IMG/VR virus record: IMGVR_UViG_3300036770_004216
Location: 1 to 27,342 of that record
Length of the DNA: 27,342 nt
Direction: 5' to 3' (one strand)
Origin: a virus
The notes under the pieces were generated by a model. The model ran no database searches. It was given only the letters and a program-made list of their open reading frames with translations, and had not been told where the DNA came from. A program made the position numbers and the translations under genes. Of this stretch, positions 6,332 through 25,671 are shown piece by piece; positions within the stretch are counted from its first letter, which is position 1, and the number at the start of each line of letters is the position of its first letter.

Positions 6332-9304
6332 ATGGCAAAAGGAGGCGGCGGTAAAGGCGGTAGCAATAGGCAAGAAGCTCGTCAAGAGGCTAGGCAAGAA
6401 GCTCGCCAGCAGGCTAGACAAGAAGCTCGTCAAGAGGCTAGGCAAGAAGCTCGTCAAGAGGCTAGGCAAGAAGCTCGTCAAGAGGCTAGACAAGAAGCTC
6501 GCCAGCAGGCTAAACAAGAAGCTCGTCAAGAGGCTTCCGGCCGCATGGCTGGAAGTGCTATACAGCAAATCGTAGGAACTGGCAAAATTTCTGGTCAAGA
6601 TATCCGAGATCTCCGTGATGCAGGGATTAGTAACCAAAGAATTGGAAACTTAATCGAGAATCGTGGGGCTGGTAATAATGCATCTACCGTAGCCAATCAA
6701 TTTGGAATAAATATTCCAGGTAGTGGAATGAGCGGTGGGATGAGTGGTGGAGCAGCAGCAGGCGGTGGAGCAGCAGCAGGCGGCGGATCAGCAGGTGGTA
6801 ACACTGTCACAAATATCCCAACTCAGAGTCTCGATTTACAAACACTTCTTTCTGCTCTTAATAGGCAGCAAAGCCAAGAAGATCTTCTTTTTGCAGCTGG
6901 CCTAGATAAACAAAATGCTGAATATTTTACTGGACAAAGTCTGCGCCAAATTGAAGCGCTTGGGGCAGAAAATCGCTTAACAGAAAGGGTTCAAGGCGAA
7001 GAACAGCGTGCTGGGTTTGCCGCACAAGGTGAGCAACAGCGTCTTGGGATTGCCGCCACTGGTGCAGAGGAACGTCAAACACAGCAAGAACGCTTTGCTG
7101 GCGAGGCAGGACTCATCGGCGCACGCGGACTTGAAGAACGCCTAGGCATTGAAACGACAGGAGCTCAGCAGCGCCTTACACAAGCTGATTTGTTAGCTGG
7201 GCAAAGAGAACAAATTATTGAAACAGGCGCTCAACAGCGTTTGGGAATTGAAGCTACTGGAGCACAAGAACGTCAGACGCAAACAGAACGCTTTGCAGGT
7301 GAAACAGGACTTATCGATGCACGTGGAGTTCAAGAACGTCTAGGCATTGAGACGACAGGAGCTCAGCAACGACAAACACAAGCTGAGTTATTAGCTGGGC
7401 AAAAAGAACAAATTATTGAAACAGGCGCTCAGCAGCGGGCCACTCAAGCTGAACTCCTTGCCGGGCAAGAACGGCAGATTGATTTAACAGGGGCACAAGA
7501 ACGTCAAACACAGCAAGAACGCTTTGCTGGTGAGACAGGACTTATTGGCGCACGCGGGATTCAAGAACGTCTCGGAATCGAAACTACTGGGGCACAGCAA
7601 CGACGAACACAAGCTGAGTTACTTGCCGGACAAGAACGGCAGATTGGTTTAACTGGACGAGAGCAACGCCTCGGAATTGAAGCCACTGGAGCACAAGAAC
7701 GTCTTGGAATTGAAACGACAGGAGCTCAGCAACGACGAACACAAGCTGAGTTACTTGCCGGACAAGAACGGCAGATTGGTTTAACTGGAGCACAAGAACG
7801 TCAAACCCAGCAAGAACGCTTTGCAGGTGAAACAGGGCTTATCGGTGCACGTGGAGCACAAGAACGTCTCGGAATCGAAACTACTGGGGCACAGCAACGA
7901 CGAACACAAGCTGAGTTACTTGCCGGACAAGAACGGCAGATTGGTTTAACTGGAGCACAAGAACGTCAAACCCAGCAAGAACGCTTTGCAGGTGAAACAG
8001 GGCTTATCGGTGCACGTGGAGCACAAGAACGTCTTGGAATTGAAACCACTGGTTTACAACAGCGTTTAGGTATTGAGGCTGCTGGTTTACAGGAACGTCA
8101 GACGCAAACAGAACGTTTTGCAGGTGAAACAGGACTTACTCGTATCCGAGGTGAAGAAGAGCGGCGTGGGATTGCAACTACCGGAGAACAACAACGCCGG
8201 ACACAAGCCGATTTACTTGCAGGTCAAGAACGGCAGATTGGTTTAACCGGCGAACAGCAGCGTCTTGGGATTGCAGCTACAGGCCGTGAAGAAAGAGCTA
8301 CACAGCAAGAACGTTTTGCAGGTGAAACAGGTTTAACTCGTGTTCGCGGTGAAGAAGAGCGTTTAGGCATTGCCACTACTGGACGAGAGCAGCGGGCCAC
8401 TCAAGCTGAACTTCTTGCTGGACAAGAACGGCAAATTGGTCTAACTGGACGTGAAGAACGTTTAGGTATTGCAGCACGTGGACTTGAAGAGCGTTTAGGT
8501 ATTGCTACTACAGGCCGAGAGCAGCGGGCCACTCAAGCTGAACTTCTTGCTGGACAAGAACGGCAAATTGGTCTAACTGGACGAGAGCAGCGGGCCACTC
8601 AAGCTGAACTTCTTGCTGGACAAGAACGGCAAATTGGTCTAACTGGACGAGAGCAACGGGCCACTCAAGCTGAACTTCTTGCTGGACAGGAACGGCAAAT
8701 TGGTCTAACTGGACGTGAAGAACGTTTAGGTATTGCAGCACGTGGACTTGAAGAGCGTTTAGGTATTGCTACTACAGGCCGAGAGCAGCGGGCCACTCAA
8801 GCTGAACTTCTTGCTGGACAAGAACGGCAAATTGGTCTAACTGGACGAGAGCAGCGGGCCACTCAAGCTGAACTTCTTGCTGGACAAGAACGGCAAATTG
8901 GTCTAACTGGACGAGAGCAACGCCTCGGAATTGCAGCTACTGGCGCACAAGAACGTCAGACGCAAACAGAACGTTTTGCTGGTGAAACAGGACTTATTGG
9001 TGCACGCGGGATTCAAGAACGTCTCGGAATCGAAACTACTGGGGCACAGCAACGACGAACACAAGCTGAGTTACTTGCCGGACAAGAACGTCAAATTGGC
9101 TTGACTGGAGAGCAAGAGCGTGCGACACAGCGTGAACGCTTTGCCGGAGAAACAGGGCTCACTCGCGTCCGTGGCGAAGAAGAGCGTGCTGGAATTCGTG
9201 AAACCGGCAGTGAGCAGCGGCAAACCGGCTTGCAGCAAGAGATGTTCAGGCGCTATAAAGAAGAGCGTGATTATGAGCAGGCTCAGCGCCAGTACCGAGT
9301 ATGA
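6332..9304 (+). CDS. Giant hendecad-repeat phage protein (990 aa)
   Basis: Four regions are visible. Residues 1-12 are Gly/Lys-rich. Residues 13-68 are tandem RQEA/RQQA repeats, a single very charged helix. Residues about 70-190 hold a small folded-looking domain (ISGQDIRDLRDAGISNQRIG) and a Gly/Ala hinge. From about 220 to 966 the chain is built from roughly 68 units of 11 residues, such as GLTGAQERQTQ, QERFAGETGLI, ETTGAQQRRTQ and AELLAGQERQI, with Gly near position 4 and Arg at position 8. The C-terminus (MFRRYKEERDYEQAQRQYRV) is basic and aromatic. Eleven-residue periodicity fits a long helix making three turns per repeat, seen in lipid-binding and right-handed coiled-coil proteins. Likely a rod-like virion or ejection protein. 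It is upstream of the terminase genes and overlaps the next gene by four bases (ATGA). Confidence 0.8.
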   Translation: MAKGGGGKGGSNRQEARQEARQEARQQARQEARQEARQEARQEARQEARQEARQEARQQAKQEARQEASGRMAGSAIQQIVGTGKISGQDIRDLRDAGISNQRIGNLIENRGAGNNASTVANQFGINIPGSGMSGGMSGGAAAGGGAAAGGGSAGGNTVTNIPTQSLDLQTLLSALNRQQSQEDLLFAAGLDKQNAEYFTGQSLRQIEALGAENRLTERVQGEEQRAGFAAQGEQQRLGIAATGAEERQTQQERFAGEAGLIGARGLEERLGIETTGAQQRLTQADLLAGQREQIIETGAQQRLGIEATGAQERQTQTERFAGETGLIDARGVQERLGIETTGAQQRQTQAELLAGQKEQIIETGAQQRATQAELLAGQERQIDLTGAQERQTQQERFAGETGLIGARGIQERLGIETTGAQQRRTQAELLAGQERQIGLTGREQRLGIEATGAQERLGIETTGAQQRRTQAELLAGQERQIGLTGAQERQTQQERFAGETGLIGARGAQERLGIETTGAQQRRTQAELLAGQERQIGLTGAQERQTQQERFAGETGLIGARGAQERLGIETTGLQQRLGIEAAGLQERQTQTERFAGETGLTRIRGEEERRGIATTGEQQRRTQADLLAGQERQIGLTGEQQRLGIAATGREERATQQERFAGETGLTRVRGEEERLGIATTGREQRATQAELLAGQERQIGLTGREERLGIAARGLEERLGIATTGREQRATQAELLAGQERQIGLTGREQRATQAELLAGQERQIGLTGREQRATQAELLAGQERQIGLTGREERLGIAARGLEERLGIATTGREQRATQAELLAGQERQIGLTGREQRATQAELLAGQERQIGLTGREQRLGIAATGAQERQTQTERFAGETGLIGARGIQERLGIETTGAQQRRTQAELLAGQERQIGLTGEQERATQRERFAGETGLTRVRGEEERAGIRETGSEQRQTGLQQEMFRRYKEERDYEQAQRQYRV
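6368..6535 (+). repeat. Tandem 12/24-base repeats encoding RQEA
   Basis: The coding DNA repeats AGGCAAGAAGCTCGTCAAGA-type units with a 12-base sub-period and 24-base period, encoding 14 tetrapeptides RQEA, RQQA or KQEA. The near identity of copies points to recent slippage expansion. Confidence 0.8.
6989..9231 (+). repeat. 33-base (11-residue) repeat array
   Basis: All spacings seen between similar blocks are multiples of 33 bases: 66 (many), 165 (for example 7786 to 7951) and 264. The reading frame is kept throughout. The encoded hendecads are described under the 990-residue gene. Confidence 0.8.
8384..8911 (+). repeat. Eight near-identical 66-base units with 264-base higher order
   Basis: Units starting CGAGAGCAGCGGGCC lie at 8384, 8516, 8582, 8648, 8780 and 8846, nearly base-identical, each encoding 22 residues ending ERQIGLTG. 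Variant units at 8450 and 8714 are identical to each other, giving a 264-base superrepeat. Such identity indicates very recent unequal exchange or slippage. Confidence 0.8.
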
Positions 9305-9827: not shown

Positions 9828-12497
9828 GTGGCCGGAACAAGTCTTTATTCAGTTTATAGACGTACGGCGCGAGCAGCAGCTCAGAAGCGAGTAGTTAAAC
9901 AAACTAGTAGCGTCGACATTGAGCGTGCACGTACGGATTTTGCTTATTTTTGTGATGTAGTCGGAGACAAGCCACCAGCAGCACATCACCTCGAGTGGCA
10001 CAAACATCTATGCACTGATGAAGACTCGGTCTGCCTAAAAGGCATTGCTGGACCAAACATCGATATTCTGGCCCCTAGGGGGCCTTTGGCGGTTTCCATG
10101 CCGGTAGCCACGCCGCACGGGTGGCGCCCTATCGGAGAACTCGCTTTAGGAGACCTTGTTTTTGCAGAAGACGGTAGCTCGACTGAAATTATAGATATCC
10201 ACGACTACGCAGAAAGTCCTACTTGGAACGTGATTTTTTCTGATGGTTCGTCTGTCGCTTGTGATGATCAGCATCTTTGGAAAGTCAGGAGAGTAGGTAC
10301 AGATGAAAAAGGCACTTGGCGCTTGATGACGTTGAATGATATTAGAACACAAAAAACTACAGGACTGGAAGGTAATTGGAGGACTGGAGGAAAAAGAATT
10401 ACAGAGGCCTGTGAAGAAGGTAGTGCCCCATGGTTGGATTCACGCGGGTGTGCGCGTTATCAAATCCCAATTACTGAGCCTGTCCAGTACCCTAAATCTG
10501 ACTTACTTGCAGATCCATACTTGCTGGGGGTACTTATTGGGGATGGTGGACTGACAAAGAAATCAAGTGTTCTACTTACGTCAGCTGATAAAGATATTGT
10601 TGACCGCTGCGGCAATTCTCTCCCTCCTGACCACGAACTAGTTAGTGTTTTTGGTTCTAAATATGGGTACAAGATTGTCAAAACAAGTAGAGAAAAGAAT
10701 AAGCCAAATAAAGTTTTAGACGCTTTGCGCACCCTCGGGTTACAAGGTAAAGGATCAATAGAGAAGTTCATTCCAGCAGAGTACAAGTTTGCTTGCGTCG
10801 AGGATCGTATTTCCCTTTTACAAGGATTACTAGATACAGATGGAACCGTAGGATCCAATCGTTCCGGAGGTGGAAAAATTTCATTTTGCAGCGCTTCCTA
10901 CCAATTAATCCTCGACGTAGTGGAACTAGTCCAATCATTAGGCGGAGTTGCAACAATTAATGCACCGCAATACAATCAATACAATTCGCCAACAGGTGAG
11001 AAAATACGAACTACAAACCCTTCCTGGAAAGTAGGCATTAAACTTCCACCATCGATAAAGCCTTTTTACCTTCAACGGAAAGCTTTGTTGTACAAACCCT
11101 GCACAAAATATCTACCTTGTAGGTCTATTGTTGATATCAAACCTGCGTTACCAGAAAAAGTACGTTGTATAACCGTCGCACATGAGAAGCATACATTCCT
11201 GACAAAAGACTATATTGTCAGCAAGAACTCAGCAAAGTCGAGCGTCCTAGGTTTATTCACAGCCTGGACAATTGGCGTGCACGCGTTGCATAAAATGCCG
11301 TTGAAGATTCTTTATATTTCGTACACAATTGACGTTGCACGTCCAAAAAGTGCGGCGATCAAAAGAATTATCGAAGAGAGTAAAACTTATAACGAAATTT
11401 TTCCGATGGTTAAAATTGCCAAGGGGATTAACTCTAACGAGTATTGGAGCATTGATTGGAAATTTGCTGGGATTAAATCAACCGGTGAAGAAGAATTTAC
11501 TGTTTGTTGCGCGGGTTTGAAAGGAGCTGTGACATCCAAGCGTTCACACCTCTGTATTATTGACGACATTTGTAAATCTGCTGACGAAATTAAAAATAGA
11601 GATATTCGAACAGCAATGGAAGATAACTGGAATTCAGTTATTGTTCCCACTATGTTTGAAGGTGGTCGCGCTATCTGCCTAGGTACGCGTTTTCGGCATG
11701 ATGATATGCACGGAACCACCTTTATTCCGGCTAACGACTGGGTCCAACTGGTGCAGTCAGCGATTGTCGTTGATCAGGAAGGTGAAGAAATCTCCTATTG
11801 GCCCGACATGTGGTCTTTAGAGTATTTGCAAGATCGACGACGACAAGCACCAATTGCTTTTAGTTTCCAGTACCAGAACCAAATTGTACAAACTAGTGAG
11901 CTGTCACTCTCACCTGACTTAATTGTGAAGGGCACAATTGCAACACAATTTGATGCCATGGGGGTTGGTGTCGATCTTTCTGCTGGTGTTCGAGAACAGA
12001 ATGATTACACTGCGTTCGTGATGGGTGGTCGCGTCAAAGATAAAATTCACATCATCGACTGTAAACGAATCCGCATTATGGGAAACTTAGAAAAGTTGGA
12101 AGCCCTTATGGAGATGATGGAGGAGTGGGGCGTCATCCATAAGGATGGCGGGCGATATTTTCCCACTGGAAGCAACATCGACATCTGGTCAGAGGCTGTT
12201 GCCTACCAAGCCTCTCTAGAAGCTGATTTTAAACGAATCTGTCTTGGTGACCACGGACTTTATAATATGCACTGGCACGCGGTCAAAGGTTTTCGGGGCG
12301 ATAAGGTTGCACGCTTCCGTGGCATTATGGGCTTGTTCGAGCAGCGTAAGTTAATTTTCAATAAGTATCGACGGTTCGGGCCGTTAACAGATGAAATCAT
12401 TAATTTTGGTGTTAGCTCCCATGATGACACAGTCGACGCATTGGTATGGCTTTGCAACGGTCTGATGACACGTGGCAAATTAGAGCTGGAGTTTTAA
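9828..12497 (+). CDS. terL: Terminase large subunit interrupted by an intein (889 aa; 507 aa after splicing)
   Basis: Packages phage DNA into the prohead with an ATPase and a nuclease domain. GTG at 9828 is the only workable start: an in-frame stop lies at 9819 and no ATG follows for many codons. Residues 86-467 are an intein that splits the P-loop, so APRG (82-85) joins SAKSS (468-472) to make the Walker A motif. Later motifs are Walker B LCIIDD (575-580), a GTR coupling motif (619-621), and RNase H-type nuclease acidic residues at GVDLSAG (D716) and HDDTVDA (D866, D867, D870). The 507-residue spliced product is a normal TerL length. Without splicing, the ATP site is destroyed, so the intein must splice for the phage to package DNA. 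Confidence 0.93.
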   Translation: MAGTSLYSVYRRTARAAAQKRVVKQTSSVDIERARTDFAYFCDVVGDKPPAAHHLEWHKHLCTDEDSVCLKGIAGPNIDILAPRGPLAVSMPVATPHGWRPIGELALGDLVFAEDGSSTEIIDIHDYAESPTWNVIFSDGSSVACDDQHLWKVRRVGTDEKGTWRLMTLNDIRTQKTTGLEGNWRTGGKRITEACEEGSAPWLDSRGCARYQIPITEPVQYPKSDLLADPYLLGVLIGDGGLTKKSSVLLTSADKDIVDRCGNSLPPDHELVSVFGSKYGYKIVKTSREKNKPNKVLDALRTLGLQGKGSIEKFIPAEYKFACVEDRISLLQGLLDTDGTVGSNRSGGGKISFCSASYQLILDVVELVQSLGGVATINAPQYNQYNSPTGEKIRTTNPSWKVGIKLPPSIKPFYLQRKALLYKPCTKYLPCRSIVDIKPALPEKVRCITVAHEKHTFLTKDYIVSKNSAKSSVLGLFTAWTIGVHALHKMPLKILYISYTIDVARPKSAAIKRIIEESKTYNEIFPMVKIAKGINSNEYWSIDWKFAGIKSTGEEEFTVCCAGLKGAVTSKRSHLCIIDDICKSADEIKNRDIRTAMEDNWNSVIVPTMFEGGRAICLGTRFRHDDMHGTTFIPANDWVQLVQSAIVVDQEGEEISYWPDMWSLEYLQDRRRQAPIAFSFQYQNQIVQTSELSLSPDLIVKGTIATQFDAMGVGVDLSAGVREQNDYTAFVMGGRVKDKIHIIDCKRIRIMGNLEKLEALMEMMEEWGVIHKDGGRYFPTGSNIDIWSEAVAYQASLEADFKRICLGDHGLYNMHWHAVKGFRGDKVARFRGIMGLFEQRKLIFNKYRRFGPLTDEIINFGVSSHDDTVDALVWLCNGLMTRGKLELEF
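10083..11228 (+). other. Intein with LAGLIDADG endonuclease in terL (382 aa), class 3-like
   Basis: Boundaries follow from restoring the Walker A motif: first residue Pro86, last residue Asn467, +1 residue Ser468. Block A is PLAVSMPVATPHG with no N-terminal Cys or Ser. Block B contains CDDQHLW with His149 and Trp151. Endonuclease motifs are LLGVLIGDGGL (232-242) and LLQGLLDTDGTV (330-341). Block F is VRCITVAHEKHTF with Cys447 at the fourth position, and block G ends DYIVSKN. A missing N-terminal nucleophile with Trp in block B and Cys in block F matches class 3 inteins (WCT signature). Here the third residue is Ser465 in place of Thr and the penultimate His is Lys466. Splicing itself is inferred. 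Confidence 0.9.
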
Positions 12498-23373: not shown

Positions 23374-25671
23374 ATGCCCTTTGGTGTAGGCGGATTCTCT
23401 AGATCAAAGGGCAGCCCTTTTAGTGGGAAGCTCGATAAGAAATTTTCTAGTCTCACAAAATTTAACGGAACAGATAAGAGAGCGGAAATTAAGAATCCGT
23501 TTGACCCATCACTTTCTCCGGAAATTGAAAGTGAAGTGCGGTTTTACAACCACGATTCACTGTGGGCTCGATGGCGTCGTGGCTATGAACTTTATTCAAT
23601 CACACAAAGCGCTTTAGGCTCAAGTGATATCGAGCGGCCTGTTAGAGGTGACTACCGGCTTTATTTTTCTTTTCAGCAATATCCAGGAGTTTTTGTTCCG
23701 GCACGTTTATTCACGTATCCCTCAACAAATCAAGACATTGGAGAGCAACTTGTTGGTATGCGAGATACCAATTCGTTCACTTTCTATGATTATGGGCTTC
23801 CAATTCTTGGTGTACGTTATGTAGGTGCTTCAGTAGAAGCAGTATACACTCAAAGTGGAACTGTAATTACTGTTACCAAGGCTGACCACGGTTTATTTCC
23901 TGGGGATAGCGTTTATTTAGCATTTTCATCGGGTACTGCTGTAAATAATACGCTCACAATTACCGAAAAAACACAAAATACCTTTACAGTTACTGCTGGA
24001 ACACCGTTAACAACAAGCGGAAACGTTGCTTACGCCATTTCAACAGCATTTACAGACTCGCGCTGGCGCTTTATTCGAGTTGCGTTAAGGTTCTTACCGA
24101 CCGAGACGGCATTATTACCAGGTGAACGGATGACTGATCGTGTAATTGAACGCGATCCGGGCATCACTGCTACTTATAGCCGCACAGGGTCAACTGTAAC
24201 CGTCACATGCACTTTAGATCATGGTCTCTCCACTGGAAATACAATTTATTTAGACATTGGAACAGGACTTGTGTCCTCTGGACGCTACGAAGTGACTGTT
24301 ACCAGTGCAACTGTATTTGAAATTACTACAATCACGAGTGGCTCAACTTTAGGGAACGCTACAGTTAACCGTCTTCTCCGTGGATTTAATTATTTAGATT
24401 ATGTAGGTTATACGGTCACCGGATCGGACGCTACTACAAATGAATTAATTTTTCAAAGAGACGATAGTTACGCAGCAAAAACTACAAATGGAATTACGGC
24501 AACAGTTGTTCCTGCGCACAGAGGATTTCAAGTCGGCAGATATCTAACAACTGAATTACGTTGGCAATGTTCTTGCGAAGACTTCAGTAAACGAGATAAT
24601 TACAACTTATATAGCCAACTTAGGCAGCGTAGGTTTCCTCAAACACAATTAGCAAATTTAAAACCAGGTCTTATCTTAAATTCTGACGGCACTTTTACCG
24701 AAACTCGGGATTCACCTGGTGTTTTCCAAGATATTGGATATACAACGATAAACAACTTTTACGAACTACCTGAATACGAGGATATTGAGCGGTTTTCGTT
24801 CCAGAATCTACTTTATTATCAGATGCGGTGGTGTAAACACATTTACGCTTCGATGTGGGCGCTAATTCATGATGAAGGTGGCGGCACTATTTCAATTAAC
24901 GCCCGGTACGAGCAATCTGGACCAAATATTACAGTTACAGCACCCAATCATGGCCTTTTGGCTAACAGACGTATCCAGCTAGATTTTACAAGTGGTAACG
25001 CAATTGCGGGAGAGTACACAATAACAAGTGTCCCAACTAAAGACACTTTTACAATTGTCTATCCCTTTGCTGATACAACATCAGGGTACTGCACGGTATC
25101 TAATTTAAAACCACACGAATATGTAAATACTTGGTTGTTAGAACCCAGTGATCAACCTGTGGGAACTGGATTAGAGACATTCTACAAAAATTTTGATCGT
25201 GAGAGTCAACGTTTGAAAGAAGTGACCGAGCGTTATGTTTTTGATTCGCAAAATCTAGGCTGGGCTGGAAGCCAAGTAATTACTGGTGCAGGCAATAACC
25301 CAGAGCAAGCTGCAAACTTCGGTCCAGCACTAACAACAATGGTATTAACTGACAATATTCGCCGCAATGGGGAAGGCAAATTAAGTCGGATAGGTATTGT
25401 AGCAAATAGTACAAACCGTTTTACGGGTTTAGTTAATAAGTTATTTAATCTAGATCCTAAAATTATTCAGGAAGCTAAATTTGGTTTTCTTGATAAGCCC
25501 TTAAGTGAATATACTAGTGAATTTGAGTTTGGATTTGTTGACGGTGGTGAGTACCGCAACGGCGTCCCACTCGAGAATGTAGATACACTTGTCCAAATTG
25601 AGGCAGAAACGTACAGTCCTGTAACAGCCTTGGATACAATAGTCGATGCAAGCCTTTACATCAATAGTTAA
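23374..25671 (+). CDS. Large tail protein with three beta modules and a stretched SWIM-like motif (765 aa)
   Basis: Three copies of an Ig-like module lie at about residues 156-222, 266-332 and 510-577, each with an H-G-L, then Y/Q-L-x-F/I-x-S/T-G, and FTV/FEI-x core. Between modules, residues 395-490 hold WQCSCEDF (C399, C401) and RWCKHIYASMW (C487, H489), the CxC ... CxH arrangement of a SWIM zinc finger but with an 85-residue gap. Other parts are aromatic and polar (NPFDPSLSPEIESEVRFYNH near the N-terminus, FGFVDGGEYRNGVPLENVDT near the C-terminus). Large size beside fibre genes fits a tail nozzle, baseplate or tailspike-adaptor. No catalytic site seen. Confidence 0.75.
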   Translation: MPFGVGGFSRSKGSPFSGKLDKKFSSLTKFNGTDKRAEIKNPFDPSLSPEIESEVRFYNHDSLWARWRRGYELYSITQSALGSSDIERPVRGDYRLYFSFQQYPGVFVPARLFTYPSTNQDIGEQLVGMRDTNSFTFYDYGLPILGVRYVGASVEAVYTQSGTVITVTKADHGLFPGDSVYLAFSSGTAVNNTLTITEKTQNTFTVTAGTPLTTSGNVAYAISTAFTDSRWRFIRVALRFLPTETALLPGERMTDRVIERDPGITATYSRTGSTVTVTCTLDHGLSTGNTIYLDIGTGLVSSGRYEVTVTSATVFEITTITSGSTLGNATVNRLLRGFNYLDYVGYTVTGSDATTNELIFQRDDSYAAKTTNGITATVVPAHRGFQVGRYLTTELRWQCSCEDFSKRDNYNLYSQLRQRRFPQTQLANLKPGLILNSDGTFTETRDSPGVFQDIGYTTINNFYELPEYEDIERFSFQNLLYYQMRWCKHIYASMWALIHDEGGGTISINARYEQSGPNITVTAPNHGLLANRRIQLDFTSGNAIAGEYTITSVPTKDTFTIVYPFADTTSGYCTVSNLKPHEYVNTWLLEPSDQPVGTGLETFYKNFDRESQRLKEVTERYVFDSQNLGWAGSQVITGAGNNPEQAANFGPALTTMVLTDNIRRNGEGKLSRIGIVANSTNRFTGLVNKLFNLDPKIIQEAKFGFLDKPLSEYTSEFEFGFVDGGEYRNGVPLENVDTLVQIEAETYSPVTALDTIVDASLYINS

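Follow-up and report, generated by a model that had tools for sequence, protein, structure and literature searches.

A full-length class 3-type intein in the Walker A loop of the large terminase of a probable S-EIV1-like phage belongs to an allele family with relaxed C-terminal splice residues

In the window studied here, that is, the entire 27,342-nucleotide stretch of the viral record IMGVR_UViG_3300036770_004216, a full-length mobile class 3-type intein very probably interrupts the Walker A loop of the large terminase subunit (TerL) of an S-EIV1-like phage. The precursor gene terL (9828..12497, plus strand, as all features below) starts with GTG and encodes 889 amino acids, as established from the translation of the open reading frame and profile matches; the C-terminal part of the protein matches phrog_38, terminase large subunit (5.8e-67 in a profile search), and also Pfam Terminase_6C. 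Comparison with TerL proteins having an empty site delimits the N-extein (9828..10082, residues 1-85, the last ones being ILAPRG) and the C-extein (11229..12494), which begins with SAKS. The 382-residue intein between them (10083..11228, residues 86-467) is supported by the translation, the empty sites, homologues and a structural model.

The TerL exteins are 64% identical to TerL of Synechococcus phage S-EIV1, and for the portal protein (12754) and the major head protein (16417) S-EIV1 was the sole match among 50,697 phage records (51% and 72% identity, respectively), while megablast of the region against the same number of phages yielded zero matches. From the matches of the exteins and the two head proteins we infer that the phage is probably S-EIV1-like and that its host is probably a freshwater cyanobacterium. 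Elsewhere in the window, positions 6332-9304 encode a 990-residue protein consisting mostly of 66-bp and 165/198/264-bp repeats (one such unit is ATQAELLAGQERQIGLTG), with an RQEA repeat ahead of this part; the family search gave weak matches to phrogs of unknown function and nothing further for it. Positions 23374-25671 encode a tail protein with two matches to the endosialidase-type beta barrel domain (PF12195) and weak baseplate or tail-spike matches.

The preliminary description had placed the intein at residues 86-467, within the P-loop, and the empty alleles confirm both the exact boundary and the insertion into Walker A. The empty site reads DLLASRG/SAKST in S-EIV1 (the slash marks the junction) and DILAPRG/SAKSS in two inteinless contigs, L009 and L010, whose C-extein protein is 100% identical to that of the window; 78 more IMG/VR contigs with TerL are empty at the same RG/SAKS site. 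Since the Walker A loop is rebuilt by excising exactly residues 86-467, a boundary that would provide Cys or Ser as the first residue, an objection foreseen in the preliminary description, is excluded. Hence, although there is a Ser90 four residues past the predicted start that could formally begin a class 1 intein, such a reading has next to no chance of being correct, the more so as in a 23-member alignment Pro1 falls in the same column as the first residue of other class 3 inteins. Chance or an assembly artefact was also considered and ruled out: an identical intein is encoded by two other IMG/VR contigs, and more than 20 divergent homologues occupy the same terL codon.

By translation, all splice residues named in the preliminary description are found at the positions given there. 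These are Pro1 (TerL Pro86, 10083..10085), which is not a nucleophile; Trp151 (B:12, intein residue 66), which together with His149 (B:10, intein residue 64) belongs to the block B His-Leu-Trp (10272..10280); Cys447 (F:4, intein residue 362; 11166..11168), predicted to act as the nucleophile that starts the reaction and to form the first branch; and Ser465-Lys466-Asn467 (G:5-G:7, intein residues 380, 381, 382; 11220..11228), where the usual motif is Thr-His-Asn. The alignment adds the block F His455 (intein residue 370; 11190..11192), and the +1 residue of the C-extein is Ser468, both a Walker A member and the predicted +1 nucleophile. His64, Cys362 and Asn382 are invariant in the 23-member alignment, and Trp66 is nearly so; Cys F:4 is also present in every match tabulated for the end residues.

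The first residue is neither Cys, Ser nor Thr, there are Cys at F:4, Trp at B:12 and Ser at +1, where class 3 inteins have Ser or Thr (Ser is known to fit; PMC5222942), and the closest relatives by both sequence and fold are of class 3. The strict WCT triplet is broken, G:5 being Ser465 instead of Thr. In a survey of 1701 inteins, however, class 3 was defined by the absence of Cys1 plus the presence of Cys F:4, with 4.6% departures at G:5 (PMC7891396). Thus, judging from its sequence, the intein is of class 3 by the working definition of the literature, though outside the strict WCT signature. Among PDB sequences, the splicing domain is most similar to two class 3 inteins, Msm DnaB-1 (6bs8, 7e-10) and Mch DnaB-1, and a profile search concurs. 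In the AlphaFold model of the intein with its flanks (pLDDT 90.4, pTM 0.89), the top Foldseek hits over the whole intein are to PI-SceI; when only the splicing domain is compared, class 3 structures 6bs8 and 6rix/6riy rank above the class 1 gp41-1 and Npu inteins. A PDB search for a class 3 intein with an endonuclease found none, only mini class 3 inteins and the class 1 PI-SceI. Taken together, the alignment, the DnaB matches and the fold ranking bear out the initial class 3-like assignment with its WC-S and Lys-Asn reading.

Class 2 inteins likewise lack the first nucleophile, and their G:6 residue is Ser instead of His (PMC4031507), hence a penultimate residue other than His would be compatible with a class 2-like reaction, in which Ser468 attacks the Gly85-Pro86 bond directly and Cys447 merely assists. 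We consider this very unlikely: the class 2 inteins known so far, which have Ala1, come from orthologues of KlbA, and Asp at F:4 is important in them (PMC4031507), whereas here the host protein is TerL, the first residue is Pro, every member of the family described below has Cys at F:4 and Trp at B:12, and the similarity is to class 3 inteins.

This family comprises 28 TerL proteins, including that of the window and some near or exact copies, with the intein at the same codon junction. Pro1, Trp B:12 and Cys F:4 are retained in 28/28 inteins, while the last three residues vary: SKN in 14, SHN in 10, LKN in two, SSN in one and THN in one of the 28. On the well-supported branches of the intein tree SKN requires at least two changes, the penultimate position three and G:5 two. 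As SKN recurs in several independent contigs, and a second lineage has it too, a sequencing error or a peculiarity of one phage could be ruled out as its source. The two LKN inteins (L139:1498-2664 and L241) come from separate contigs, occupy the same TerL site and are approximately 42% identical to the window's intein; Pro1, Ser+1 and the His, Trp and Cys of the class are all retained in them, but their G:5 residue has no hydroxyl. Among the inteins compared, their LKN end is the strongest departure from WCT/THN.

Outside the family, THN was found in 157/157 sampled matches (79/79 from bacterial genomes and 78/78 from viral contigs), these being the best-scoring hits and not a random sample. 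Among 18 named phage records, the TerL inteins of Gmala1 and YungMoney end with SHN and TRN, respectively. Thus, the combination that the preliminary description had called unusual is so relative to other class 3 inteins, but not as a trait of a single phage, as it extends to the whole family; as far as the sequences go, the departure from Thr-His is concentrated in one allele family at RG/SAKS and is not peculiar to the window's phage. A TerL intein of this family with the SSN end is assigned to a bacterial MAG, LLD_282, on a contig named Lanier (L242), and this is probably a phage contig binned with the bacterium. A class 3 intein with the THN end is seen in Chlorogloeopsis fritschii PCC 6912 in a Walker A-like motif, APRESAK/S (L243), three residues downstream of the window's site, possibly in a prophage TerL of this cyanobacterium.

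Two lines of evidence suggest that splicing has been retained. Firstly, dN/dS between family members, calculated for unsaturated synonymous sites only, is about 0.05-0.18 for the intein and about 0.05-0.11 for its splicing domain, and every intein copy compared has an uninterrupted reading frame, indicating that the family inteins evolve under purifying selection; because of this, the window's intein probably splices. Secondly, the changes at G:5 and at the His positions are tolerated according to published work: mutation of Thr G:5 can have a minimal effect, this residue not being strictly needed (PMC5222942); in the AceL NrdHF intein, T144A makes splicing about tenfold slower, and this class 3 intein splices without both the block F His and the penultimate His (PMC7891396); and penultimate Lys is known from class 1 mycobacteriophage inteins (PMC5050341). 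Therefore splicing is likely, and, by the same token, its lesson is partly known already: the suggestion that the intein would be informative about the needs of class 3 splicing was overstated, as the dispensability of Thr G:5 and a class 3 intein lacking the penultimate His have been published (PMC5222942, PMC7891396). With Ser at G:5 and no penultimate His, cleavage at the C-terminal junction might proceed slowly.

With two positions off consensus, the third signature residue and the penultimate one, the intein might instead be degenerate and splice poorly, leaving TerL immature, so that the contig would stem from a defective phage or from a cheater that relies on co-infecting phages for complementation; indeed, among published class 3-like inteins there is an inactive pseudogene (PMC3196547). 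However, Cys F:4 and His B:10, which that pseudogene no longer has, are intact here, SKN is shared by half of the family TerLs and arose at least twice, the frames are open and under purifying selection, and TerL is normally essential for packaging, all of which makes degeneration an unlikely explanation.

Holding together the Cys-His-Thr triad and driving the cyclisation of Asn are roles ascribed to the G:5 hydroxyl and the penultimate His. It is conceivable, if rather doubtful, that in this TerL lineage the C-terminal end of the class 3 reaction has been rewired, so that neither is used and Lys466 or His455 acts instead, with Leu-Lys-Asn of L139 and L241 as the extreme; the speed of splicing may then be adjusted to when DNA is packaged. 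In the class 3-type reaction that we favour, Cys447, helped by His149, would attack the Gly85-Pro86 peptide bond, and the N-extein would be held as a thioester and then handed to Ser468; cyclisation of Asn467, possibly aided by His455, would release the intein, and the ester would rearrange to a Gly85-Ser468 peptide bond, restoring APRG-SAKS. The replacement of Thr-His before Asn by Ser-Lys, Ser-His, Ser-Ser or Leu-Lys would mean that both positions are relaxed in the family. Splicing would be needed for DNA packaging. While the boundary, the residues, the family, the conservation and the flank signature were read from sequence, we infer the splicing chemistry, the activity of the endonuclease and the dependence of packaging on splicing.

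The intein contains a PI-SceI-like LAGLIDADG homing endonuclease domain (10515..11006; Pfam LAGLIDADG_3, PF14528, the PI-SceI profile match and Foldseek) with two motifs, LLGVLIGDG (10521-10547) and LLQGLLDTDG (10815-10844), both with acidic residues. This domain would cut inteinless terL, allowing the intein to spread by homing, and the site shows both empty alleles and a signature of transfer. Over 3 kb downstream of the insertion the window is 95% identical to the empty contig L009 at the DNA level, and yet differences are seen at 14/60 sites lying up to 30 bp from the insertion compared to 91/2195 beyond (Fisher p ~3e-7; both the Fisher tests and the tract borders were chosen after inspection of the data). 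The excess of differences to L009 and L010 outlines a putative co-conversion tract with approximate edges, its upstream part at 9963..10082 and its downstream part at 11229..11273. The codon for Ser+1 is TCA in the window and AGC in the near-identical empty relatives, and the first 45 bp downstream are 93% identical to another empty contig, L013, which further on is just 83% identical. The flank pattern is as expected from recent homing with co-conversion from another lineage. On a larger scale, the presence of the intein requires at least four changes on the extein tree, and several intein pairs have fewer synonymous differences than their exteins; in both these comparisons the C-extein of one contig, L090, forms a long branch and aligns poorly, which was traced to a second intein there.

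This second intein, smaller and looking like class 1, is situated at Walker B in the C-exteins of L090 and L110 and in TerL of S-EIV1 (L006). It reads KRSHL/C...N/CLIDD or CVIDD, with Cys1 and a VLN or VSN end lacking the penultimate His. Hence TerL of L090 and of L110 each carry two inteins of different classes, one in each Walker motif; the Walker B site of the window is empty.

The closest structural relatives, Msm DnaB-1 (6bs8) and Mch DnaB-1 (6rix, 6riy), share with the window's intein a non-nucleophilic first residue, the block B His and Trp, the block F Cys and the terminal Asn, but both are DnaB mini-inteins whose G:5 residue is Thr, whereas the window's one is full-length, has an endonuclease, resides in TerL, starts with Pro and ends with Ser-Lys-Asn. 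The mycobacteriophage inteins TerL1-a to -e (Gaia has TerL1-e) are also in the TerL ATPase domain, some of them being of class 3 and some in the P-loop; splicing was seen for representatives of several sites, and cleavage of inteinless DNA for two inteins (PMC5050341). They occupy other insertion sites, the window's RG/SAKS being three residues before the K/S site, and the Gaia intein ends with THN. The split AceL NrdHF intein has proven class 3 chemistry despite MCT for WCT and the absence of the penultimate and block F His (PMC7891396), but keeps Thr G:5 and is only weakly similar to the window's intein (rank 47 in the fold search). The inteins of Gordonia phages Gmala1 (SHN) and YungMoney (TRN) and of Vibrio VCO139 share the TerL host and the class 3 layout, Gmala1 having Ser G:5 and YungMoney lacking the penultimate His, like the window; they are approximately 27-33% identical to the window's intein and inserted after the Walker A Lys. 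Finally, PI-SceI (the VMA intein) has the same intein-plus-LAGLIDADG architecture, but belongs to class 1, starts with Cys1 and interrupts a eukaryotic vacuolar ATPase.

Thus, the novelty implied initially for a class 3 intein in TerL and for the P-loop insertion was overstated, as both had been described (PMC5050341); what is new is the family with relaxed G:5 and G:6. One insertion site provides a natural series of THN, SHN, SSN, SKN and LKN ends on mostly closely related scaffolds, and all of these inteins are apparently maintained. With this series one can directly test Thr G:5 as the third member of a protease-like triad, a role suggested by the structure of Mch DnaB-1 (PMC7664689), and ask what substitutes for the penultimate His. 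In addition, the family shows that S-EIV1-like phages are among those with class 3 TerL inteins, and the traces that recent homing has left are unusually clear here.
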